Shown here piece by piece: positions 12,143-28,141 of a stretch of DNA of 47,197 nt. This DNA comes from a virus, in IMG/VR virus record IMGVR_UViG_3300032116_000353, positions 1 to 47,197 of that record; one strand, written 5' to 3'. Made by a program: the position numbers and the translations under genes. The notes beneath the pieces were generated by a model that saw only the letters and a list, made by a program, of their open reading frames with translations, had not been told where the DNA came from and made no database searches. The number at the start of each line of letters is the position of its first letter. Position 1 is the first letter of the stretch.

Positions 12143-12709
12143 CTACCCCCTAATTCCATAAAGAGCAATTTTTGATTTAGTATCTATTGTTGCACCGCAG
12201 TCAACTCTAATAGAAGTTACTGCTGTAGTTACTTTATTCATACCTGATAATATTTGAAGAGTTCCGCCACCGTTCTCATCTTTTCCTGAAAGTGAGCGAA
12301 TAGTTGTTATTTTATTGTCATTAGCGTAGTCAAAAATATCTACAATACCTACGGCAGGATAGGTTCCACTTGTCGCGTTAGTAGCAGCATACATAAAAGT
12401 TGTTGAACCATTTCCAGTTGCAGAGGTGTCGGTTCCAGTACCACGAAGTTCGTGATAGGTGTAACTGCCTGCCGATGAAACACCATTAAATGTTAGAGTA
12501 ACATCTGCATTAGTTGCGTTTGCAAGAATAGAGAAACGAATTTGTAAATGTTGAAATGTTTGTGGAATATCAGTAAAGTCTATAAAGTTAGCACTGCCTG
12601 AAATTGTAGGAGTAGCAATAGATACAAATGCTGACTGTAAAGAGTCAGTTATGTTGCCAGCAAGTAACTTTCTACCAGAGGTCTTATTCTTTAAAGTAGT
12701 TATGGGCAT
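12143..12709 (-). CDS. Beta-rich virion/adhesion protein, paralog 3 of 3
   Basis: The product has 188 residues. It has an extra N-terminal segment (PITTLKNKTSGRKLLAGNIT) and then the shared core: FIDFTDIPQTFQHLQIRFSI, VTLTFNGVSSAGSYTYHELR, VGIVDIFDYANDNKITTIRS and SKIALYGIRG. The start overlaps the stop of the large propeller-like gene (TAATG). The extra N-terminus may be the virion attachment part. Function is inferred from location among fibre genes. Confidence 0.6.
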   Translation of the reverse strand: MPITTLKNKTSGRKLLAGNITDSLQSAFVSIATPTISGSANFIDFTDIPQTFQHLQIRFSILANATNADVTLTFNGVSSAGSYTYHELRGTGTDTSATGNGSTTFMYAATNATSGTYPAVGIVDIFDYANDNKITTIRSLSGKDENGGGTLQILSGMNKVTTAVTSIRVDCGATIDTKSKIALYGIRG

Positions 12710-14547
12710 TATAGACCTCCATGAGCGTTAGATAGTCCTGCGTTAGCCAGTCCAGCAGATAGTATGTCACCAAAATCGGTGGCGTTTCCAGTAGAAGCGA
12801 TTGTAATATAGTCAATTACGTTGCTTGCACTGCTTCCATAAACGGTTCCACCAGCAAATAACCCACGAGTACTGCTAGAAGCACCAGATAAGTTGTATCT
12901 TGCAACTGTTAAATCGCCAAAGTCTGTGGCATTTCCTGTTGAGGCGATTGTTATGTACTCGATTACATTTTGGTTTTGGTCAGCACTTGTAAGGCCACCT
13001 GTCCAAATTCCACGAGTGCTACTTGAACAACTTGCTGAATTAAATCTAGCCACTGTGCTATCGCCAAAGTCTGTGGCATTTCCTGTTGAGGCAATGGTCA
13101 CATAGTCGATTACGTTAGAATCTGTGTTGCTTCCTAAGAATCGAGGACCAACAACTCCTCGTGTTGTGCTAGCACAAGCAGAGGCAAATCCATGATTTTG
13201 CGTAGAGTCACCGAAGTCGGTGGCGTTTCCTGTGGTTGCTATTGTTACATATTCAATAATATTTGAATAACCAGAAGCACTAAGACCTAAAGTAATTATT
13301 CCTCTTGTGCTATTTGAGCACGTTGATGGTTTTTGTGAAACATTTAGAAGGTCACCAAAATCGACTGCATTTGCTGCAGAAGCAAGTGTTATGTAATCAA
13401 TAGTGTTTAAGTTTGAACCGTTGTTTCCTCCAGCAAATACTCCTCTAGTACTTGAACTGAGTCCACTTACAGAATTTCTTGCTTGACTTAAATCACCAAA
13501 ATAAGCAGTATTTCCAAGAGTAGCGATGTCAACAGTTTCTATAAGTCCTGAGTACGAACCGCCACCAGCAAAAAAGGCTTGAGCCGCTGCCAAAGAGTAT
13601 GGAAGTGGTAACTCTATTCCACCGTGTCTATTAGAAACTCCAGCAATGGCGTAACGACTTGTAGTCAAATCGCCAAAATCAGTAGCATTACCTGTCGAGG
13701 CAATTGTAATATAGTCAATGGTATTTCCATTTCCACCAAAAGCGCCTCTAGTAGAATTTGACACTCCTGCGACATAACTACGACCAACTGTCAAATCGCC
13801 AAAGTCGGTAGCATTTCCCGTAGATGCAAATGTTATGTACGCTATAGTATTTTGAGGTTCCGCATCTCCACCTCCAATTACTCCTCGTGTGCTAGAAGAC
13901 ACTGCTCCTGCTAACCACTGATTTTGTGTTAAGTCACCAAAATCGGTGGCATTACCTGTAGAAGCAATTGTGATGTAATCAATTTCGTTAGAACCTGATG
14001 GGGAGGCTCCACCAGCCCATATACCTCTAGTTGGTGAAGAACAAGACGCTGGTCCTCTTTTACCAACAACCAAAGAACCGAAGTTAGTTACATTACCAGT
14101 AGAAGCAATTGTGATGTATTCTATAACAGTTTGATGAGTACCTGCGCCACTTTCATTACTTCCACCACCAACGATTCCTCTAGTCTCACTTCCGCAGGAC
14201 GCTGTTGTCTGTCTTACTCCACTTAAGTTTCCAAAATTTGTTCCATTACCAGTAGAAGCAATAGTAATGTATTCAATTTTGTCTGCACCTGCTGTTCCTA
14301 CCTGTCTTCCAAAGATTACTCCTCTAGTCGAGGAACCAGTTCCCGATGAAAAACCGTTCGCATATAGCGAATCCCCAAAATCAACTGCATTTCCAGCAGA
14401 GGCAATGCTTATGTAGTCGATGGTATTATCATTGACATGTCCAGCAACAAACACTCCTCTACCAGAGGATACATTTGCGGGCCAGGAAGTGTTAGCAGCG
14501 AGCGCACTGCGAAGTTTGGTACGTCTTTTCAGACTAAGGATAGCCAA
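12709..14547 (-). CDS. 12-repeat beta-propeller-like tail fibre protein A
   Basis: A 612-residue protein made almost wholly of repeats of about 45-50 residues with the core IDYITIASTGNATDFGDLT, then a variable stretch, then SSTRG(V/I)xxGG. I count six cores, then SNRHGGIELP, then six more, ending SNAHGGL. That suggests two six-bladed propeller-like units. The repeat recalls kelch/RCC1-like propellers. The start is a TTG at 14547, since no ATG or GTG precedes the first repeat. It is probably a receptor-binding or fibre protein. The C-terminal marker S-N-x-H-G-G is shared with its paralog at 15728-17590. Confidence 0.7.
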   Translation of the reverse strand: MAILSLKRRTKLRSALAANTSWPANVSSGRGVFVAGHVNDNTIDYISIASAGNAVDFGDSLYANGFSSGTGSSTRGVIFGRQVGTAGADKIEYITIASTGNGTNFGNLSGVRQTTASCGSETRGIVGGGSNESGAGTHQTVIEYITIASTGNVTNFGSLVVGKRGPASCSSPTRGIWAGGASPSGSNEIDYITIASTGNATDFGDLTQNQWLAGAVSSSTRGVIGGGDAEPQNTIAYITFASTGNATDFGDLTVGRSYVAGVSNSTRGAFGGNGNTIDYITIASTGNATDFGDLTTSRYAIAGVSNRHGGIELPLPYSLAAAQAFFAGGGSYSGLIETVDIATLGNTAYFGDLSQARNSVSGLSSSTRGVFAGGNNGSNLNTIDYITLASAANAVDFGDLLNVSQKPSTCSNSTRGIITLGLSASGYSNIIEYVTIATTGNATDFGDSTQNHGFASACASTTRGVVGPRFLGSNTDSNVIDYVTIASTGNATDFGDSTVARFNSASCSSSTRGIWTGGLTSADQNQNVIEYITIASTGNATDFGDLTVARYNLSGASSSTRGLFAGGTVYGSSASNVIDYITIASTGNATDFGDILSAGLANAGLSNAHGGL

Positions 14548-15727: not shown

Positions 15728-17590
15728 CTATACTCCTCCGTGTGTGTTTGATAGTCCTTGTACATCAGCCCTAGCAACAGTCAAATCTCCAAAATCTGTA
15801 CCATTACCTGTAGTTGCTATTGTAACGTATTCCATTGCATTTGAATACCCCGATTCTCCTCCAGCAAACACTGCTCGTATTTTAGAACCTGCTGCGCCTC
15901 TTCCAACTAAAGAAGATATTAAAGTACCAAAATTTGTAGTATTTCCTGTTGTTGCTATAGTTAGATACTCTACGACTGTTCTATCTCCACCAGTGGCTTG
16001 ACCTAAATGTATAACGCCTCTCGTATCGCTAGACGTAGCACATGCTTCTTGAATTGTTCCATTTGCAGAGTCACCAAAGTCTGTGGCATTTCCTGTGGAT
16101 GCAATTGTTACGTAGTCAATAGTATTTCCATTTCCAGCAAAAACAGCACGAGTTGGAGAAGCAAGAGATGCGGGATTAGTTCTTCCAACCGTTAAATCAC
16201 CAAAATCAACGGCATTACCAATCGTTGCTATTGTAAAGTAGTCAATGACATTGGAACTACTGGCGCCTCCTGCAAAAAGGCAACGAGTATCATTGGCAGT
16301 TGCTCTAGGGCCTTCTCCCCCTCTACTTACGCTAGTGTTTCCAAATGAAATAGCATTTCCTTTTGAAGAAAAAGTAATGTAGTTTACAGAGGCACCCATG
16401 TTATACCCAGCACCAATTAAACCACGAGTTTTTCCTCCTCCTGCACCGCCATCAGAACCTGAAGTAGTTAAATCTCCCCAATCTACTGCGTTACCAAGAC
16501 ATTGAATGTCTACATAATCAATTACGTTGTTATTACTTCCAGCCCATCCTTGACCAAACACACCAAGTCCTTGGGTAGACTCTGTAAGTGCACCATTACT
16601 ATTTATAAACTGCAATTGTTCTCTGTCAATTCCACCATGAGCATTAGAGAGTGCAGATGACCCATATCTTGCAACTGTTAAATCACCAAAATCTACTGCG
16701 TTGCCAGTGGTATCAATAGTTACATAATCAATAGTGTTAGTGACTGCTCCACCTCCCCAAAGTCCACGGGTAGAGTTAGACGTAGAACCTAGTTCATGTC
16801 TAGCAACTGTCAAATCACCAAAGTCTGTGGCATTTCCTGTCGAGGCGATTGTTACATAATCTATAGTGTTTACGACGGGGGTATCCCTGTTACCTCCACC
16901 AAACAACGCTCTTGTAGGAGAAGAACATCCAGCAAGACTGAATCTTCCTTGAGTTAAATTTCCAAAATTAGTAGCATTTCCAGTAGAAGCAATAGTTACG
17001 TATTCTATTTTAAGTAGTGCTGATGGATTATATGGTGGACCTCCACCTGCCCACAGTCCTCGTGTGGTAGATGAACAAGATGCCATATCTGAAATTGAAG
17101 CACTCAAATCACCAAAGTCTGCGGCATTTCCTGTTGTTGCAATTGTAAAGTAGTCAATTGTATTGGTTTGTGCGTTTGAACCAGTTCTTCCACCACCAAT
17201 TATCCCACGAGTTTCACTACCGCATCCAAACATGCGTGCTCTACTAACGGTTAAATCACCAAAAGAAATGCCGTTTCCAGTGGAAGCAATAGTTATGTAT
17301 TGAGAAGCAGCCAAATATGTGCTAGCAGAAGTTCCTCCTCCAGCAAATAGTCCTCTAACACTAGAAGCACATGTTCCTGGCATATAGCGAACTGCTGACA
17401 AATCGCCAAAATCTATGGCATTACCTGCCGAAGAAATGGCTACATAATCAATTACATTTTGAGTAACATCACTGCTGTTATTTCCGCCACCCCAAATACC
17501 TCTACCAGAAGCCACATTTGTTAACCAGGAAACATTAGTTACATTTACGTCGTAACCATCATCGCCTGTCTTGACACTACTTACCGTCAT
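15728..17590 (-). CDS. 12-repeat beta-propeller-like tail fibre protein B
   Basis: The product has 620 residues with the same architecture as protein A: six cores like IDYVTIASTGNATDFGDLTV, a divider SNAHGGIDREQ, six more diverged cores and a terminal SNTHGGV. The second half is the more degenerate, for example VNYITFSSKGNAISFGN. Blade tips read (S/A)(S/P)TRGxxxGGG. AAAGGAC precedes the ATG. It is clearly a paralog of the 612-residue protein, so the pair probably arose by duplication. A receptor-recognition role is inferred from the repeats and the location. Confidence 0.7.
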   Translation of the reverse strand: MTVSSVKTGDDGYDVNVTNVSWLTNVASGRGIWGGGNNSSDVTQNVIDYVAISSAGNAIDFGDLSAVRYMPGTCASSVRGLFAGGGTSASTYLAASQYITIASTGNGISFGDLTVSRARMFGCGSETRGIIGGGRTGSNAQTNTIDYFTIATTGNAADFGDLSASISDMASCSSTTRGLWAGGGPPYNPSALLKIEYVTIASTGNATNFGNLTQGRFSLAGCSSPTRALFGGGNRDTPVVNTIDYVTIASTGNATDFGDLTVARHELGSTSNSTRGLWGGGAVTNTIDYVTIDTTGNAVDFGDLTVARYGSSALSNAHGGIDREQLQFINSNGALTESTQGLGVFGQGWAGSNNNVIDYVDIQCLGNAVDWGDLTTSGSDGGAGGGKTRGLIGAGYNMGASVNYITFSSKGNAISFGNTSVSRGGEGPRATANDTRCLFAGGASSSNVIDYFTIATIGNAVDFGDLTVGRTNPASLASPTRAVFAGNGNTIDYVTIASTGNATDFGDSANGTIQEACATSSDTRGVIHLGQATGGDRTVVEYLTIATTGNTTNFGTLISSLVGRGAAGSKIRAVFAGGESGYSNAMEYVTIATTGNGTDFGDLTVARADVQGLSNTHGGV

Positions 17591-17988: not shown

Positions 17989-19011
17989 ATGTGGGTTAAA
18001 GTGTACTCCATGAATCTGGTGCATAAATCGGTATCTCAGGGCGGAAAATTAGCGCCTCTTATAGTACCTCATAACCTGCCTGATAACACGGGAATTATGA
18101 ACCCATCCATCTTTATTGACGACGATGGGGATATCCTGGTCAATGTCAGGTGTGTTAATTACACCCTCTACATTTCTGAAGAAGATGAAAGATTCTTTAG
18201 TCCTTGGGGGCCGCTTACTTACTTGCATCCAGAAAAGGACCAGAGGCTGGTCACCTTTAACTATATGTGCCGCCTTGATAAGGACTTAAATCTAATTAAC
18301 TCTACTCAGGTAGAGATGCTCAATCTTCATAAGCCTATCTGGGAATTCCACGGACTTGAAGATGCCAGAGTCGTTAGATGGGATGGCGACCTGTACATGA
18401 TTGGTGTGCGCCGTGATACCACGCCTAATGGACAAGGTCGTATGGAATACTCCAAGATTGATTTAGATAAAGACAAGTGGACTGCTAAGGAAGTCTCACG
18501 CGTGCGCATGCCCGCGCCCGTGCACGAGAACACTTCCTACTGTGAAAAGAATTGGATGCCCATTCTTGATTTCCCATATCACTTTGTTAAGTGGGCAATG
18601 CCTACAGAAGTTGTGTGGTCTAATCCTGAAAAGCCAGAGACTGTTCAAGAGTTCACACGAGAGACACCTACATCTCCTAAAGACCAACGTGGTGGCTCAC
18701 ACATAATTCCTTGGGGCGATTACTACATCTGCCTTACACATGAAGTAGCGTTATGGCGCAACTACCTTAATCAGAAAGACTCAGTTTATAGACATCGCCT
18801 TATTGTTTGGGATAATGACTTTAACTTTTTAGGATTAAGTAAAGAGTTTGCATTTATGGATGTAAAGATTGAGTTTTGTACAGGAGCCGCAGTTAGAGAT
18901 AACAACCTACTTGTGAGTTTTTCTGTCGCTGATAATGCTGCATTTATTCTTGAGATTCCACGCCATGTAGTTAATGGCCTGATTACGGAGGCTCTCTCGT
19001 ATGTCGGTTAA
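17989..19011 (+). CDS. GH130-like glycosidase/phosphorylase-fold protein
   Basis: The product has 340 residues. It contains MNPSIFIDDDGDILVNVRCV, WEFHGLEDARVVRWDGDLYM, GVRRD, CEKNWMPI, RGGSHIIPWGDYYICLTHE and FCTGAAV. The order N-P-S, a G-x-E-D-x-R strand, a double Arg-Asp and late H-E resembles five-bladed propellers of the GH130/GH43 type that act on oligosaccharides, often as phosphorylases. Catalytic competence cannot be judged by eye. It heads a plus-strand cassette with TPR-like, methyltransferase and glycosyltransferase genes, which supports a glycan role. The second in-frame ATG at 18010 is an alternative start; neither has a strong ribosome site. Confidence 0.6.
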   Translation: MWVKVYSMNLVHKSVSQGGKLAPLIVPHNLPDNTGIMNPSIFIDDDGDILVNVRCVNYTLYISEEDERFFSPWGPLTYLHPEKDQRLVTFNYMCRLDKDLNLINSTQVEMLNLHKPIWEFHGLEDARVVRWDGDLYMIGVRRDTTPNGQGRMEYSKIDLDKDKWTAKEVSRVRMPAPVHENTSYCEKNWMPILDFPYHFVKWAMPTEVVWSNPEKPETVQEFTRETPTSPKDQRGGSHIIPWGDYYICLTHEVALWRNYLNQKDSVYRHRLIVWDNDFNFLGLSKEFAFMDVKIEFCTGAAVRDNNLLVSFSVADNAAFILEIPRHVVNGLITEALSYVG

Positions 19012-19564
19012 AGACCTTGCTATTGACCTTGCTTCTAATACACGAGATGCTAATAAAAACTTTGCATTAGCGGAAGAATATGAGAGGCTAAAACAGCATG
19101 CTTCTGCTGCTGGATTCTTTCTTAGGGCAGCAGATTTAGGATATAAGACCAATCCGTTATTAACTTATACGGCCCTGTTAAAGATGGCTCTCTGCTTCTC
19201 TAGACAGAACGATAGAACCGCTACCGTATTAACTACTTTGCATAATGCTATTGCTTTCATGCCTTCACGACCAGAGGCGTACTTCATTCTTTCACGATTC
19301 TATGAGCGCAACAAGGACTGGAATAAAGCCTATGCATTTGCCGAAATTGGTCTGCAATTTGCCATGGTTGCTAACCATTTACCTACGCCAGGTTATGTGG
19401 AATACAATGGTGTCTACTGCCTTATGTTTGAAAAGGCCGTTACAGGCTGGTGGATTGGTCGCAAAGACGAAAGTAGAGCAATCTTTCAAGACCTACTAGA
19501 TAATCACAAGATGTCTCCAGAGTATGTCTATGGATGCCTTAGTAACATGAAGTTGTTTGCATAA
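19001..19564 (+). CDS. TPR-like helical repeat protein
   Basis: The product has 187 residues of antiparallel helices. Segments such as FALAEEYERLKQHASAAGFF, PEAYFILSRFYERNKDWNKA and YAFAEIGLQFAMV fit tetratricopeptide-like repeats (small residue, aromatic, A-x-x-Y). It overlaps the preceding gene by 11 bases and ends on the base where the methyltransferase ATG begins, so the cassette is tightly coupled. TPR domains often accompany glycosyltransferases and scaffold them or bind their protein substrate. That role here is inference. Confidence 0.6.
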   Translation: MSVKDLAIDLASNTRDANKNFALAEEYERLKQHASAAGFFLRAADLGYKTNPLLTYTALLKMALCFSRQNDRTATVLTTLHNAIAFMPSRPEAYFILSRFYERNKDWNKAYAFAEIGLQFAMVANHLPTPGYVEYNGVYCLMFEKAVTGWWIGRKDESRAIFQDLLDNHKMSPEYVYGCLSNMKLFA

Positions 19565-20094
19565 TGTTTCCTAACTGGTTTAAAGATGTAGAAAAGTACT
19601 TTCGTCACGTTCCTAACGTGCCATTACGAGCCTTGCAGATTGGTACCTATACAGGTGATGCAACGGAGTGGTTACTTAAAAATCGAGAGATTGAACGCTT
19701 ACATGATGTAGATACTTGGGAAGGAAGCGAAGAGGCGGCCCATGAATCTATGGACTTTTCTTCAATAGAGTCTTATTACGATTCTAGATTTGATGACTTG
19801 CGATTAGTCAAGTGCAAGATGACTAGCGACCAGTTCTTTAGTGATAATAAAGAGACATTTAACTTCATCTACATAGATGGAGACCATACAGCGCTACAGA
19901 CCGCCCTAGATGGCCTCAATGCCTTTAAATGGCTAGAAACAGGTGGTGTGATGGCTTTTGATGACTATTTATGGAATTACAACGGCAATCCCTATTTAGA
20001 GCCTAAACGGGGCGTAGACGCCGTTTTAGAGGTATGTAAAGGCCAGTATGTATTGATTGAGTCTGGCTATCAGGTATGGATACAGAAATGCTAA
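19564..20094 (+). CDS. Class I SAM-dependent methyltransferase (Methyltransf_24-like)
   Basis: The product has 176 residues with motif I LRALQIGTYTGDATEWLL near residues 21-38, then an Asp/Trp after the next strand (DVDTWEG), FNFIYIDGDHTALQTALDGL and ETGGVMAFDDYLW. G-x-Y-x-G and Y-I-D-G-D-H with a following F-D-D are characteristic of small methyltransferases that modify sugars or secondary metabolites. It overlaps the next gene by 19 bases. In this cassette it would most simply methylate a glycan added by the adjacent glycosyltransferase; the substrate is inferred. Confidence 0.75.
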   Translation: MFPNWFKDVEKYFRHVPNVPLRALQIGTYTGDATEWLLKNREIERLHDVDTWEGSEEAAHESMDFSSIESYYDSRFDDLRLVKCKMTSDQFFSDNKETFNFIYIDGDHTALQTALDGLNAFKWLETGGVMAFDDYLWNYNGNPYLEPKRGVDAVLEVCKGQYVLIESGYQVWIQKC

Positions 20095-20828
20095 ATAACG
20101 CATGCTTTGAAGTCTTTCATACCGATACTGGAAATGAAATACGAAATAAATCTTACGAGGGCATTTTAAACCGTATGTCATTCTTGCCAAGACTTGGCTC
20201 ACCTACGATGTATCTAAATACTGCAGAAAAGGCAGAGAAGTTCATCAATGAAAATCCAGACTTCAAAGTAAACACGGTTGAAGATTACGCACAGCCTGGA
20301 GAGACTTTCCCACCTAGTTCAGGAGTAGTAGGAGTATGGGCAAGTAACTGGTTGGCATACAAAAAGTTCCTTGAAACAGATAAAGATGTATTGATTATCT
20401 TTGAAGACGACATAGTTGTAAGCGCAAATTTTGAACCCATAATGAATTTCTACATGCAGCAGTTAATGCCTACTTGGGATTTCTTTTCTTTCTTTGTACC
20501 AGACGACTCGCTATTTGCTTACAACGAAGAAGAGCACGACATCTATGAAGAGCACGTCTGTCGTTCATATCAACAATGGTCATGTGCAGGTTATGCAGTA
20601 AGTAAACGTGGGGCAGAAAAAGCGCTTAATGATGTAGCCACACGTGGCATCACAGCCCCTGTAGATTGGTATGTATTCAACTTTAGAATGAAGCAAGAAG
20701 AGAACCAGATGAAGTTTGCTACATACACTCTAAAGCCAAGAGTATATCGACCTATAAAATTCTTAATGCAGGCAGCAGTACATAGCCAAATTCACAACGG
20801 CAGTACTGAGTTGCTACATACCACCTAG
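20076..20828 (+). CDS. GT25-type glycosyltransferase
   Basis: The product has 250 residues. The core SSGVVGVWASNWLAYKKFLE, then VLIIFEDDIVVSANF with E-D-D near residues 110-112, and QQWSCAGYAVSKRGAEK with PVDWYVF, matches the LPS/collagen-type glycosyltransferase family 25: an S-x-x-x-G-x-x-x-S-x-x-x-A-(Y/W) helix, the E-D-D metal-binding loop and the G-Y-x-(I/V)-S segment. The family includes animal collagen galactosyltransferases and bacterial LPS enzymes. Its 3' end overlaps by 15 bases, convergently, the 3' end of a collagen-like fibre gene. The start could be 20076 or the in-frame ATG at 20088. The acceptor is unknown; the fibre is an attractive candidate. Confidence 0.75.
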   Translation: MDTEMLNNACFEVFHTDTGNEIRNKSYEGILNRMSFLPRLGSPTMYLNTAEKAEKFINENPDFKVNTVEDYAQPGETFPPSSGVVGVWASNWLAYKKFLETDKDVLIIFEDDIVVSANFEPIMNFYMQQLMPTWDFFSFFVPDDSLFAYNEEEHDIYEEHVCRSYQQWSCAGYAVSKRGAEKALNDVATRGITAPVDWYVFNFRMKQEENQMKFATYTLKPRVYRPIKFLMQAAVHSQIHNGSTELLHTT

Positions 20829-22085
20829 CATCAAGATATCTGGGATTGAGCCACCTGCTGCTGCAGTTCCTGTAGAACCCTGGACTCCACCAATTCCTTG
20901 CGCACCCTGAGTACCTTGGGTTCCAGTTCCAGTTGTACCTTGAGTACCCTGCGTGCCTTGTGCACCAGTCGTACCAAGAGTTCCCTGAACTCCTTGAGTA
21001 CCTTGAACTCCTTGAACTCCTTGAGCACCAACGGTTCCTTGAGTTCCTTGTGTACCGCCTGTACCTTGAACACCCTGTGTTCCCTGAGTTCCTTGTACGC
21101 CCTGTGAACCAACTGTGCCTTGAGCACCTATTGTTCCTTGAGTTCCCTGTGGTCCTGTAGGTCCTTGTACACCTAGGAAAGAAATAATAAAAGAGATAGT
21201 GTCATTGGTAGAAAAGTTTGTTGGAGAAGTTCCAGAACCAGTGTTAGATACTGGAATCTTTACATAACTATTTGTAACTACTGTTATCGCACCAGTGACA
21301 TCAAATGTTTGATAGGAAGTAGAGTCGGCTTTCTTTTGAATAGTAATCTTGTCGCCCTGTTTAATCACTGAATACAGAACGTCATTGTCATTACCAAGTT
21401 GGTCTAAATGACTTATGTACAAGAATGTAGCGCTAGTTTGTGTTGTATTGTTCCAACGCAAATTTCCACTTGATGGTTCTGAATCTGCTTGGCTAGCAGC
21501 GTCTGCTTTGTATTCAAAAATGCTTGAAGAAGAACCACTTTGACCAGCAAGACCTTGACTACCTTGAGCACCAATACTTCCTTGAGTTCCCTGTGCACCT
21601 GTAGTTCCTTGAGTTCCCTGTGTTCCTTGGACTCCTTGAGTTCCTTCGGTTCCTTGCGTTCCTTGAGAACCAATTACTCCCTGAGTTCCTTGAGTTCCTT
21701 GAATACCCTGTACTCCTTGAGAACCAACCGTTCCCTGGACTCCCTGTTGTCCTTCGGTTCCTTGTGTACCCTGAGTGCCTTGTGTTCCCTGTGTGCCTTG
21801 TGTTCCCTGTGTGCCTTGTGTTCCCTGAGCACCAGTTTCTCCAATAATTCCCTGGACTCCCTGGACTCCCTGAACACCTTGCGTACCTTGAACTCCCTGT
21901 ACACCCTGTGTTCCTTGAATACCTTGTAATCCGCCATAAGCGAGTGAGTTCCAAGCAGTAGAACCATTACCAACTTTTAATTTCCCAGTATCGGTTTCAA
22001 TACCAACTTCACCAGCGGCAAGTGTTGGATTATTATTACTCCAGTTGGTCGCTGTTCCACGACGTAACTTGATTGTAACTGCCAT
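20814..22085 (-). CDS. Collagen-like tail fibre with Mtd-like N-terminal domain
   Basis: The product has 423 residues. The N-terminus (TIKLRRGTATNWSNNNPTLA, then GEVGIETDTGKLKVGNG and WNSL) matches the small attachment domain found at the start of major tropism determinant and other fibre proteins. Two collagen-like blocks follow, about residues 52-182 and 304-405, built mostly of GTQ, GVQ, GAQ, GSQ and GIQ triplets with very little proline. Between them lies a beta-rich domain (about 185-303). It ends in a short Gly/Ala-rich tail. The protein should trimerise into a rod. Thr at position X in many triplets offers possible O-glycosylation sites. Confidence 0.75.
   Translation of the reverse strand: MAVTIKLRRGTATNWSNNNPTLAAGEVGIETDTGKLKVGNGSTAWNSLAYGGLQGIQGTQGVQGVQGTQGVQGVQGVQGIIGETGAQGTQGTQGTQGTQGTQGTQGTQGTEGQQGVQGTVGSQGVQGIQGTQGTQGVIGSQGTQGTEGTQGVQGTQGTQGTTGAQGTQGSIGAQGSQGLAGQSGSSSSIFEYKADAASQADSEPSSGNLRWNNTTQTSATFLYISHLDQLGNDNDVLYSVIKQGDKITIQKKADSTSYQTFDVTGAITVVTNSYVKIPVSNTGSGTSPTNFSTNDTISFIISFLGVQGPTGPQGTQGTIGAQGTVGSQGVQGTQGTQGVQGTGGTQGTQGTVGAQGVQGVQGTQGVQGTLGTTGAQGTQGTQGTTGTGTQGTQGAQGIGGVQGSTGTAAAGGSIPDILMLGGM
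20868..21175 (-). repeat. Collagen-like G-x-Q block, distal part of the 423-aa fibre
   Basis: Nine-base units encode Gly-X-Gln triplets (GTQ, GVQ, GAQ). The unit is repeated with synonymous variation in the Gly, Thr and Gln codons. The tract can expand or contract by recombination with the other three blocks. Boundaries are approximate. Confidence 0.75.
21540..21932 (-). repeat. Collagen-like G-x-Q block, proximal part of the 423-aa fibre
   Basis: About 43 Gly-X-Y triplets follow the N-terminal attachment domain, including an uninterrupted run of GTQ triplets near 21777-21829. GTE and GET punctuations occur. The nucleotide repeat (CCTTGTGTTCCCTGTGTG in the plus orientation) is nearly exact in one stretch near 21778-21820, a likely recombination or slippage point. 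Boundaries are approximate. Confidence 0.75.
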
Positions 22086-22366
22086 TAGAGGACTCCTCCA
22101 CCTTCATAAGAACTTGTGTATGTATCACTGCCACTTGCTTCATCTCCACCATCTGCTGTTGCAGTATAGGCATCGCTACCATCGGCTTCATCTCCACCTT
22201 CAATTATGTCAAATGAAGGTGTAGTAGCAATTTCTGTCCAAATAACTCCATCAAAAACATAAAGATTATGGTTATCTGGATTAAAGTACAGGTCCCCAGC
22301 ATAGCGACCTACTGGCTCCGTATTCGAAGCCAGTACGTTAATGGGAACTAGTGCTCTTTTGCTCAT
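22085..22366 (-). CDS. Short fibre adaptor-like protein with acidic repeats
   Basis: The product has 93 residues. The N-terminal half, PVGRYAGDLYFNPDNHNLYV then FDGVIWTEI, is the same small domain seen at the start of the 886-residue fibre (G-x-x-Y-F, L-x-x-(W/F)-x-G-x-x-W). The C-terminal half contains the repeat GGDEADGSDAYT / GGDEASGSDTYT twice. It lies between the two collagen-like fibre genes, overlapping the next start (TAATG) and one base after the previous stop. It may be a truncated fibre or a connector for the following fibre. Confidence 0.6.
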   Translation of the reverse strand: MSKRALVPINVLASNTEPVGRYAGDLYFNPDNHNLYVFDGVIWTEIATTPSFDIIEGGDEADGSDAYTATADGGDEASGSDTYTSSYEGGGVL

Positions 22367-22367
22367 A

Positions 22368-25028
22368 TTAAGCCTGGACTACCACCCTGTAGGTTTCTCC
22401 AGAGGCTGGAGCAACTGCAAATCTAATCTCTACAGTGTTTATTCCTGTTACATCGACATCTGTAACAACCTCTTCTTTGTTTGCTGTGTCGTAGACCTTT
22501 ACCTGAATATCTTCAGTGGCAAGGTTGTGTGTAATTGTGAAATCTGTTGCTGAGAACGGATTTACTGGAGTAATAGTTGCTGCAAATTTGCGAACAACTA
22601 CCGAAGTATCAATTGCAACTGTATCGGCTGCAACTGAGATGCCTGTTCCAGCACCAACATTAAACGTTGTGCCAGTCTGTGTGAGACCGTCACCAGCGGT
22701 GAACGCTCCCGCTCCTGAGAACTGTGTAAAGATAAGGTTAGTTGAGTTAAGAGTAATCGTCTCATTTGTTGAAAGAACCCAACCAGTGTCTGCTTGACCA
22801 CCTTCCTCTACGAAGGTAAAGAGTCCTGCAGTAACTTCTCCAGTTGCGTTTGCATCTTCTGCACGAACAAGCACCCATGGAGTAGAGCCTGAACCTTTGT
22901 GGTTAACTAGATAGATACCATGGTAAGCACGGTTTCCACCTGCTTCGTTCTTAACAAGGACTCGCTCGTTATCTTCAACTGCAACAGTGTCAATTGTTAG
23001 GGCGCCATTTGCATTTGCAGTAAGCGTTCCACCATTAGCACTTGTGTAAGTGTATGCAGGAAGTGCTGCAGCAGTAGCGGCTCGTACAGACTCTTTAACA
23101 TCAAGTCCCTGAGCAACTCCGTCTACATAGTCCTTTGTAGCAATAACTGCTGTGTCAACAGCAATGGTAAAGGTCTGCTGTGCACCGTTGTAGGTTGTTT
23201 GGATACCTGTTCCATCAACAACAACTGTGTTTAGCGCATCATTTACACGCTGTACTGAGAAGTAGAGATTGCCTGAACCTTCTGGAACGTCATCAGTATC
23301 AGCAATCGTTGCTGTGATGTCGCTGGTAAGAGCGATAGTACCTGCAGCATCTGGAAGACTGATATCTTGATTGGCAGTAGGTGTGATTGCTTTGAGGGTC
23401 GTTGTAAATTGAGCACCTTCAAATTTTGCACCTGTTGATGCAACAAAGGCATCAAATTTAATTTCATCGCCAGTTTTCTGTAACGCATAACCAGCAGTGA
23501 TTGGGTCAGTGGTTCCTGTAGCACCCTGTGTACCTTGAACTCCCTGGACTCCCTGAACGCCTTGGGTGCCCTGTGTGCCCTGCGCACCGACTGTACCCTG
23601 TGAACCCTGAGCACCATCAAGACCCTGAATACCATCAGTACCCTGAGTTCCCTGAGTTCCTTGGGCTCCTTCGGTACCTTGAGCACCATCAAGACCTTGA
23701 ATACCGTCTGTACCTTGCGTACCCTGGGTTCCTTGTGAACCGACAGTTCCCTGTGTTCCTTGAGAACCTACTGTGCCCTGTGCACCCTGTGCACCTTCAG
23801 TGCCTTGAGTTCCTTGGGCTCCTTCAGTACCTTGAACACCCTGTTGACCTTCAACACCTTGAGCACCTTCGGTGCCCTGTGTTCCTTGAGCACCAAGAGT
23901 TCCCTGGGTTCCTTGAGAGCCGACAGTTCCTTGTACGCCTTGCGCACCAGTTGTACCTTGTAGACCAGTGTCACCCTTATCACCAACACGAGCAAATGTT
24001 AAGTAGATATTGTCGTTGTTAACAATAGTCAAAGTTCCTGATACGTATGCAACTGGAACTGTGTACCAAGTGCCCTGGTCAGTATGCGCATTAACAATCT
24101 GGAAGAACGCATAGTTAAGTGGGTCTGTAGCGTCTGTTACTTTAATTGTTCCCTTGATACTTGATGTTGAGTCATCAATTGTTTCAAGGAATGAAGAAAT
24201 ATCTAAAGAATTAAAGTCAATATCATCAATGTACATCTCTGTAACTGAAGAGAATGTGGTGCTATCAAACTTTACGTTACCTGAACCTGGGTCTGTTTCA
24301 CCAGTGTTTGTAAGGTAGTTGTACTCATGAGTTTCGCCACCGAATGAACCTGTAGCACCCTGTGTACCTTCAGTACCTTGAGCACCTTCTGCTCCTTGAG
24401 TTCCCTGTGTTCCTTGGGCGCCTTCTGCACCTTGCGTTCCTTGAGAACCTTCAGTTCCTTGTGCACCTTGCGCACCAAGAGTGCCTTGTACACCTTGTGT
24501 TCCTTGTGTGCCCTGGACTCCTTGTGCACCTACAGTGCCTTGCGTACCTTGCTGACCTTCAGTTCCTTGTGCACCCTCTGTTCCTTGAGTACCCTGCTGA
24601 CCTTCAGTTCCTTGTGCACCCTCTGTTCCTTGTGTTCCTTGTGTTCCTTGCGCTCCTACAGTTCCTTGAGAACCAAGCGTTCCCTGAGTTCCTTGGGTTC
24701 CCTGAGCACCATTAGTTCCTTGCGTACCTTGAGTTCCCTGAGCACCGTTAGCACCGTCAAGACCTTGTGCACCAGCAGTACCCTGCGTTCCTTGAGTACC
24801 TTGTGCACCAGTATCGCCAGTTGCTCCTTGTGTACCTTGAGTTCCCTGAGCACCAGTACTGGTGTTAATCCATGAACTGCCATTCCAGGTGCGTAGATAA
24901 CCAAGTACGGTATCAAAATAAATTTGACCTACAACAGGGCTCGATGGCGCTGTTGCTAGGTTCTGAATGCGAGCATTCTGTAATTCTAATTTAGATAAAT
25001 CAATCGGGGTTAAAAATTTACGTGCCAC
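22368..25028 (-). CDS. Large collagen-like tail fibre
   Basis: The product has 886 residues. N-terminal attachment domain (VVGQIYFDTVLGYLRTWNGS, then SW), a first collagen-like block (about 57-226) of GTQ/GAQ/GTE triplets, a beta domain (about 230-350), a second collagen-like block (about 350-505) and a C-terminal region. The C-terminal region has ATKDYVDGVAQGLDVKESVR, NERVLVKNEAGGNRAYHGIY and a last strand set ending GETYRVVVQA. That C-terminal layout is one I recall from tail fibres of marine myoviruses. The start is GTG with AAGGAG seven bases upstream. It probably recognises the host surface. Confidence 0.8.
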   Translation of the reverse strand: MARKFLTPIDLSKLELQNARIQNLATAPSSPVVGQIYFDTVLGYLRTWNGSSWINTSTGAQGTQGTQGATGDTGAQGTQGTQGTAGAQGLDGANGAQGTQGTQGTNGAQGTQGTQGTLGSQGTVGAQGTQGTQGTEGAQGTEGQQGTQGTEGAQGTEGQQGTQGTVGAQGVQGTQGTQGVQGTLGAQGAQGTEGSQGTQGAEGAQGTQGTQGAEGAQGTEGTQGATGSFGGETHEYNYLTNTGETDPGSGNVKFDSTTFSSVTEMYIDDIDFNSLDISSFLETIDDSTSSIKGTIKVTDATDPLNYAFFQIVNAHTDQGTWYTVPVAYVSGTLTIVNNDNIYLTFARVGDKGDTGLQGTTGAQGVQGTVGSQGTQGTLGAQGTQGTEGAQGVEGQQGVQGTEGAQGTQGTEGAQGAQGTVGSQGTQGTVGSQGTQGTQGTDGIQGLDGAQGTEGAQGTQGTQGTDGIQGLDGAQGSQGTVGAQGTQGTQGVQGVQGVQGTQGATGTTDPITAGYALQKTGDEIKFDAFVASTGAKFEGAQFTTTLKAITPTANQDISLPDAAGTIALTSDITATIADTDDVPEGSGNLYFSVQRVNDALNTVVVDGTGIQTTYNGAQQTFTIAVDTAVIATKDYVDGVAQGLDVKESVRAATAAALPAYTYTSANGGTLTANANGALTIDTVAVEDNERVLVKNEAGGNRAYHGIYLVNHKGSGSTPWVLVRAEDANATGEVTAGLFTFVEEGGQADTGWVLSTNETITLNSTNLIFTQFSGAGAFTAGDGLTQTGTTFNVGAGTGISVAADTVAIDTSVVVRKFAATITPVNPFSATDFTITHNLATEDIQVKVYDTANKEEVVTDVDVTGINTVEIRFAVAPASGETYRVVVQA
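23514..23980 (-). repeat. Collagen-like block 2 of the 886-aa fibre
   Basis: About 50 Gly-X-Y triplets, mainly GTQ, GAQ, GTE, GVQ and GLD. A segment G-T-Q-G-T-D-G-I-Q-G-L-D-G-A-Q is repeated twice near 23607-23730, showing recent internal duplication. Boundaries are approximate. Confidence 0.75.
24349..24860 (-). repeat. Collagen-like block 1 of the 886-aa fibre
   Basis: About 57 Gly-X-Y triplets immediately after the N-terminal attachment domain. The unit GTEGAQGTEGQQGTQ is repeated in tandem near 24540-24640 with almost identical DNA, indicating a recent duplication. Gln or Glu occupies position Y in most triplets and Thr or Ala position X; proline is absent. Boundaries are approximate. 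Confidence 0.75.
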
Positions 25029-27013: not shown

Positions 27014-28141
27014 CTAGTTGGTGTAGACCTTGACGATAGCCTGGTCTGTAATAACACCTAGACCCCAGATTGCGTACCAAGCAAGAGCGTGCTCACGACC
27101 AAAGTCAAGAACACCACCATCACGAAGTTCAACTGGGAGAGAGATTGCGTGACCAAATGCATTGTCACCAATCATGATTGATTCGTAAACCTCAGCACCG
27201 TTACCAGTTGCAGAAGTTAAGTAACCCTTTTCAGCAGTGAAATCTGCAGACTCTGGGTTACCGCCTGAACCTGGACGAGTGTTAGCCTTAACAGGAACCT
27301 CAATCTGAGACGCAGGAACTCCTACGCTTGTTGAAGTTGTATAAGAAGCGTTAACAGCCAACTTCTTAACCTGTGTGGTTTCGATGAATACTACGTCGTA
27401 TAGACGTCCAATTTCACCGAGCATGAAGTTTCCTGGAGCAGCGTACTTTGTTACCTCGATGAACTCTGGGTTCGAACGGATATCGCGTGACTGCTTAGGG
27501 TGTACGAACTGTACGTATGTCTCACCGAGACGTGGGATGTTCTTACCAGCAAGGGTAAGAGCAGCATCCTTTACAGCACCTGTTGATAACTTGTAGTTAC
27601 CATCTAGGTCTGAGAACTGTGTTGCTGCGGCACCTTCGTTGTACCAGTCATTGACACCCTGTAGTGCAGAGCGGTCATAACCAAATACTGCAGATGTTGC
27701 TGCAGATAGTGTGTTACGTGCCTGTACATCTAGGTACTGTGCCATGTGGCGACCAAGAAGACGTGAGGCAGAAGCCATTACGTCATCGAAGGATGCGTTG
27801 AGAAGAAGTTCAGAAACTGCTACTGCGTAGCCGTGTTCTGCAACAGTAATTGCAATCTGCTCTGCAGTAAGAGCGTTCGTTGTCATACGAACACCTTCTG
27901 TTAGAGGAGATGGGTCTACTGCAAAGTTCTTGTAACGAAGGAAGTTCACACGAAGACCAGGAGCAACTCCTAGTTCAGTCTTCTTTACAGCAAACTGTTC
28001 AAAACGAAGAATTGGCATTGCCTGGAAGAGGATTTCCTTCGACCAGATTGTTTGAATTGCTTGATTCAGGGATGTATTAGAGCCTGAATAAGCGGTAGGG
28101 GCGCTGGCTAGTTGACCAGTACCTGTAATTGCACTTGCCAT
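27014..28141 (-). CDS. Major capsid protein (N4-gp56-like family)
   Basis: The product has 375 residues. After a flexible N-terminus it reads IWSKEILFQAMPILRFEQFA, then GLRVNFLRYKNFAVDPSPLT with EGV, followed by TVAEHGYAVAVSELL. This is the signature of the N4-gp56 family of HK97-fold capsid proteins: (P-I)-L-x-F-x-Q-F-A, G-x-x-V-x-F-x-R-(Y/W), L-x-E-G and Y-G/H-G-x-A-V. Later come VHPKQSRDIRSNPEFIEVTK and GEIGRLYDVVFIETTQ, usual C-terminal strands. AAAGGA lies upstream of the ATG. It follows a coiled-coil scaffold gene. The identification is secure. Confidence 0.9.
   Translation of the reverse strand: MASAITGTGQLASAPTAYSGSNTSLNQAIQTIWSKEILFQAMPILRFEQFAVKKTELGVAPGLRVNFLRYKNFAVDPSPLTEGVRMTTNALTAEQIAITVAEHGYAVAVSELLLNASFDDVMASASRLLGRHMAQYLDVQARNTLSAATSAVFGYDRSALQGVNDWYNEGAAATQFSDLDGNYKLSTGAVKDAALTLAGKNIPRLGETYVQFVHPKQSRDIRSNPEFIEVTKYAAPGNFMLGEIGRLYDVVFIETTQVKKLAVNASYTTSTSVGVPASQIEVPVKANTRPGSGGNPESADFTAEKGYLTSATGNGAEVYESIMIGDNAFGHAISLPVELRDGGVLDFGREHALAWYAIWGLGVITDQAIVKVYTN

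Follow-up and report, generated by a model that had tools for sequence, protein, structure and literature searches.

A GH130-like/TPR gene cassette associated with proline-free collagen-like fibres in phages: a probable fibre modification system

Introduction

Why does a phage carry a set of sugar-handling genes in the middle of its fibre region, and on what do they act? The question is raised by the IMG/VR virus record IMGVR_UViG_3300032116_000353, whose 47,197 bp are referred to here as the window. Since it encodes a tail sheath, portal, major capsid protein and terminase, the window derives from a contractile-tailed phage. Four plus-strand genes (17989–20828), here called the cassette, are embedded among its minus-strand fibre genes. 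The last of them encodes a GT25-family glycosyltransferase; it converges on a gene for a collagen-like fibre of 423 amino acids (aa) and overlaps with it by 15 bp (20814–20828). An earlier note on this DNA had located this overlap and all cassette and fibre genes correctly, including their strands, and had proposed a system in which the GT25 enzyme decorates the adjoining collagen. The link to proline-free collagen is strongly supported across phages, whereas neither GT25 as the core enzyme nor adjacency as a requirement held up. With a probability of roughly 0.6 the phage uses the cassette to modify proline-free collagen fibres of its own, the probable reaction being O-glycosylation of Thr. 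The genes concerned are:

17989–19011, plus strand: GH130/GT108-like five-bladed propeller protein, 340 aa, with a GLEDAR motif; putative sugar-transferring core enzyme
19001–19564, plus strand: TPR protein, 187 aa (Pfam TPR_6, 5e-6); obligate partner of the GH130-like protein
19564–20094, plus strand: class I methyltransferase, 176 aa (Pfam Methyltransf_24, 3.5e-13)
20076–20828, plus strand: GT25-family glycosyltransferase, 250 aa (PF01755, E 1.6e-8), with the metal/donor motif FEDD
20814–22085, minus strand: collagen-like fibre, 423 aa, Mtd_N-type N-terminus, 79 triplets (Pfam Collagen, 1.4e-33); proposed substrate
22085–22366, minus strand: small fibre-locus gene, 93 aa, separating the two collagen genes
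22368–25028, minus strand: second collagen-like fibre, 886 aa, 110 proline-free triplets (Pfam Collagen, 5.4e-50); proposed substrate

Results

Distribution of the cassette in relation to the collagen repeat type

We scanned IMG/VR for DNA encoding either GTQGTQGTQG or GPTGPTGPTG, ignoring the neighbouring genes, and then searched the whole records. A size floor of at least 40 kb for GTQ records (n = 28) and at least 38 kb for GPT records (n = 22) was applied, and 26 records retrieved via an arbitrary 15-mer served as baseline. A profile of the GH130-like protein matched 21 of the 28 GTQ records (E 1e-83 to 1e-188). It gave one weak match among the 22 GPT records and none in the baseline (Fisher p for the GH130-like gene in this survey, 3.6e-7 and 2.4e-9). 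Among shorter records of 20–40 kb the gene was found in 9/19 with GTQ and 1/18 with GPT repeats (p 0.008). GT25 was detected above the cut-off in 13/28 GTQ, 1/22 GPT and 0/26 baseline records. Throughout the GH130-positive records of the survey a TPR gene adjoins the GH130-like gene, lies near it or is fused with it. Both repeat types were supplied by four metagenomes (3300027734, 3300008110, 3300031857 and 3300042691), and in all four the GH130-like gene occurred with GTQ and not with GPT collagen. One GPT-collagen record (L600, G032:25000-44900) encodes a weak, fused GH130-like/TPR protein of 665 aa; this relative is divergent and does not belong to the proline-free group.

The GH130-like proteins of the GTQ records, which range from 40 to 258 kb, have a median identity of 49% to one another. 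Eight of the 21 positive records lacked a collagen open reading frame (ORF) in the stretch retrieved around the GH130-like gene. Cassette and collagen need therefore not be adjacent, and simple hitch-hiking within a fibre island is insufficient as an explanation.

Lineage control and named phages

As a control for ancestry we anchored a second search on the window's major capsid protein, searched whole records and considered loci of determinable status. Within this capsid lineage cassette genes were present in 20/20 loci with proline-free collagen, in 0/9 with proline-type collagen and in 0/7 without collagen. The capsid tree implies about three changes of collagen type, and we regard this control as suggestive, not significant.

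Named phages divide in the same manner. DSL-LC02 and S-SCSM2R possess the cassette core together with proline-free GTQ collagens (proline fraction at the X position of the Gly-X-Y triplets.01–.06), whereas S-CRM01, MA10 and ESCO10 lack the core and have proline at 17–36% of X positions. Synechococcus phage DSL-LC02, a metagenome-assembled genome (PMC10611076), also encodes a GDP-mannose 4,6-dehydratase; beside its GH130-like gene and collagens lies a fusion of TPR, FkbM methyltransferase and radical SAM/SPASM domains (L112:12947-15100).

A shared fibre island, or ancestry common to certain aquatic phages, could carry GTQ collagens and cassette together in the absence of any functional link. 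The capsid lineage offers two independent contrasts, and GTQ phages may be enriched in particular clades or habitats, both of which favour such an explanation. It accounts poorly, however, for co-occurrence over the range of record sizes and protein identities given above, for the positive records in which adjacency is missing, for the agreement of the four mixed metagenomes and for the purifying selection on all four cassette genes. We consider it very unlikely.

That selection is reflected in ratios of non-synonymous to synonymous substitution rates (dN/dS) of 0.02–0.09 for cassette genes wherever computable (window versus two relatives). The cassette was found again in well over 100 contigs. 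Because of both observations we take its members to be real, working genes. A PADLOC search gave no match to anti-phage defence genes, and sigma-70 promoters and terminators around the cassette did not exceed the level of shuffled sequence.

Gene neighbourhood in relatives

The earlier note had suggested a survey of GT25 genes near collagen-like genes, and its expectation was confirmed. Among 85 distinct GT25 proteins having downstream sequence, 81 have a collagen-like gene within 3 kb downstream, 76 of them within 50 bp. Of the 81 collagen genes 77 converge with GT25 and 4 share its direction, and all encode proline at no more than 5% of X positions. Counted from the GH130-like gene the picture is similar: 120 of 122 collagen ORFs in the flanks of 114 distinct genes are proline-free. 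Blind survey, lineage and neighbourhood counts thus all tie the genes consistently to a candidate virion protein target.

GT25 itself was rejected as the core enzyme, since many phages with GTQ collagen carry the GH130-like and TPR genes without it. Distant relatives retain these two genes and exchange the others. The core of the cassette is the GH130-like/TPR pair, and GT25 is an optional tailoring add-on. Tailoring domains found in relatives include Methyltransf_24, FkbM methyltransferase, radical SAM/SPASM and DUF6445; the TPR protein is fused to such domains in many relatives, and the methyltransferase is exchanged for FkbM or other domains. In four loci (L052, L055, L071, L085) an ATP-grasp ligase-like gene of about 280 aa is inserted before GT25, after the methyltransferase or TPR gene. 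The idea that GTQ repeats are specific to phages with GT25 was also discarded: GTQ collagen lacking Thr at Y occurs where the examined flank shows no cassette gene.

Outside phages the GH130-like protein is rare. Relatives occurred at 6 loci among 84,980 bacterial and archaeal genomes, all in environmental draft genomes, and one of the six is flanked by two proline-free collagens. On contig L672, assigned to a metagenome-assembled cyanobacterium, the GH130-like gene and a neighbour gene lie between two proline-free collagen genes; this contig probably stems from a phage, possibly an integrated one. Only three of 50,697 phage records match.

In the window, two further repeat proteins of 612 and 620 aa are encoded on the minus strand at 12709–14547 and 15728–17590, with repeats such as DYITIASTGNATDFGDLT and no Pfam match. 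Because they are rare in cassette relatives they are probably swappable fibre or adhesin modules. The 620-aa type was the flanking fibre that we checked as a common substrate, and it was rejected, being present in 6/212 cassette loci. This bears on the possibility that the targets of the cassette are other virion or fibre proteins, or parts of the collagen-bearing fibre beyond its rod, with the collagen type a by-product of the fibre class. The location of the cassette among several fibre genes fits such a target, as do the capsid and tail-tube proteins that are the known sites of phage virion glycosylation (Freeman 2023, as reported in PMC12619734). The factor common to the loci, however, is the proline-free collagen and not the flanking fibre examined, which makes this explanation quite unlikely.

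Predicted activities of the cassette proteins

The GH130-like protein stays below the Pfam cut-off (PF04041, 15.4 bits versus 26), and a PF04041 search of the record gave no match. Its AlphaFold2 model (predicted local distance difference test, pLDDT, 85) was matched by Foldseek to GH130 mannoside phosphorylases and Leishmania GT108 GDP-mannose transferases with E values of about 1e-8. In an alignment of 33 relatives the GxEDxR motif is kept, and N38, D125 (within the motif) and D315 are invariant. The assignment to the GH130/GT108 clan is based on the predicted five-bladed propeller and this motif with its invariant, putatively catalytic Asp; the profile alignment with a true GH130 protein spans 17 residues around GxEDxR. 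The Asp of this motif is the equivalent of the candidate catalytic acid of GH130 enzymes (BT3780 D142, BF0772 D131; PMC4599007). BF0772 binds mannose through Asn73, Asp131 and Asp344 (PMC4264767), and N38 and D315 would correspond to Asn73 and Asp344. The GH130-like protein is likely an active sugar-handling enzyme. Fold and catalytic-acid motif are shared with the GH130 phosphorylases and the GT108 mannosyltransferase/phosphorylases of Leishmania; in contrast to these the phage protein is sub-threshold in Pfam, nearly restricted to phages, accompanied by or fused to a TPR protein and linked to collagen.

The GT25 protein scores 35.1 bits against the PF01755 curated cut-off of 24, and F109-E110-D111-D112, comprising the metal/donor EDD, is invariant across 28 relatives. 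Its profile matched bacterial GT25 structures in the PDB and, weakly, mimivirus R655 (1.7e-4) and human COLGALT1 (1.4e-3). With the AlphaFold2 model (pLDDT 77) Foldseek returned COLGALT1 (E 2.4e-9), R655 (2.6e-9) and bacterial beta-1,4-galactosyltransferases (2.8e-8). Alignment and fold match thus agree on a GT-A fold with EDD motif. The earlier note had proposed this comparison with COLGALT1 and had named a match limited to GT25 enzymes of lipopolysaccharide (LPS) type as evidence to the contrary; we found instead that the bacterial enzymes rank no higher than COLGALT1 and R655. Because the two groups match about equally well, the predicted fold is compatible with a collagen acceptor without establishing one. 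Fold family and EDD motif are common to COLGALT1, R655 and the phage enzyme, whereas the latter is a single domain of 250 aa with 13–16% identity, and the collagens adjoining it have almost no Lys, so that the hydroxylysine acceptor is absent.

Composition of the collagen fibres

Over the X and Y positions the 423-aa fibre contains 2 Pro in its 79 triplets and the 886-aa fibre none in 110. Thr occupies about half of the X positions and Gln about two thirds of the Y positions, while complete GTQ triplets account for 25/79 and 29/110. The repeats are thus proline-poor, and "Thr at X, Gln at Y" fits them better than pure GTQ. The repeats contain 0 and 1 Lys, which excludes a COLGALT-like transfer of Gal onto hydroxylysine and leaves Thr itself, or a sugar previously attached to it, as the natural acceptor. 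Thr density was rejected as a cue for the cassette: GPT collagens are equally rich in Thr per triplet, and density alone therefore fails to explain the link.

Discussion

Modification of the host surface is the usual proposal for glycosyltransferases in phage host-recognition regions, and the cassette could remodel host surface glycans for superinfection exclusion or receptor change. Host-interaction genes are naturally placed in tail-fibre regions, and the GT25 family includes bacterial LPS enzymes, in keeping with the bacterial galactosyltransferases among the Foldseek matches. Papers on aquatic phages propose modification of the host O-chain or cell wall (PMC7029224, PMC10202952). Such a role gives no reason for the presence of the cassette to follow the type of collagen repeat (proline-free versus proline-rich), as it does across phages and within one capsid lineage. 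In addition, the closest named relatives of the window's capsid protein (27014–28141, minus strand) infect Streptomyces: phages LuckySocke, Alone3 and BRock have capsid proteins 62% identical to it and share the window's gene order of portal, scaffold, capsid, fibres and sheath. To judge from these relatives, the host may lack LPS and may be a freshwater actinobacterium. Host glycan remodelling is in our view unlikely.

Modification of the phage's own collagen remains the reading we prefer. For catalysis, acceptor, sugar and benefit we infer the following. The propeller would add or extend a sugar, possibly mannose, on a fibre chain recruited by the TPR protein. GT25 and the methyltransferase would next extend and methylate the glycan, and in related phages FkbM, radical SAM or ATP-grasp enzymes would substitute for them. 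The acceptor would most likely be the Thr at X, and the benefit a triple helix stabilised or shielded without proline. Glycosylated Thr stabilises a worm cuticle collagen (Mann 1996, as cited in PMC11766948). More tentatively, the cassette may represent a phage-specific collagen maturation system in which the propeller is a protein O-glycosyltransferase, assisted by the TPR protein and by tailoring enzymes that can be swapped. Such a system would take over the stabilising role of proline, and its presence in a phage would be predictable from the repeat code (G-T-Q versus G-P-T).

Several points weigh against collagen modification. Six of the 28 GTQ records lack a GH130-like gene despite their proline-free collagen, one of them carrying GT25; these records may be fragments. 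The statistics of the blind survey were calculated without full correction for phage phylogeny, and the two independent pairs in the capsid lineage, both concordant, give p 0.5. Proline-type collagens, whose Thr sits at Y, contain at least as much Thr per triplet. The GT25s of Streptomyces phages (27–31% identity) are not beside collagen genes where examined. Finally, the proposed collagen modification is deduced from gene content, folds, selection and association.

Chlorella virus and mimivirus encode glycosylation of their own virion proteins. In BclA of Bacillus a methylated glycan is attached to Thr. BclA is likewise a prokaryotic collagen-like rod carrying sugars (PMC8968730); its repeats, however, have Pro at X and Thr at Y, different from the almost proline-free window collagens, and its glycosylation enzymes look unrelated to the cassette. 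In mycobacteriophages, phage enzymes also glycosylate their own virion, the reported targets being capsid and tail-tube C-termini and not collagen (Freeman et al. 2023, as described in PMC12619734). The E. coli prophage protein EPclA is a collagen-like tail-fibre protein as in the window, differing in that proline occupies about half of its X positions; recombinant EPclA is not glycosylated, yet stable (PMC3368898). Virus-encoded virion glycosylation and glycosylated bacterial collagen are thus already known. The open-access literature searched yielded no report of a modification cassette connected with phage collagen; the GH130/GT108-type core tied to proline-free phage collagen appears new within that scope.

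The collagen triple helix normally needs proline, in animals hydroxyproline. Many aquatic phages make proline-free fibres that have no known stabiliser, and the GH130-like/TPR pair marking such collagens is a candidate answer. The association of repeat type and cassette also supplies a rule against which the sequence of any phage genome can be tested. If the proposed function is true, it would provide enzymes for the bacterial production of stable proline-free collagen. It would also give a new role to phage glycosyltransferases now regarded as modifiers of host surface or DNA, and virion glycosylation would extend from capsids to receptor-binding fibres.

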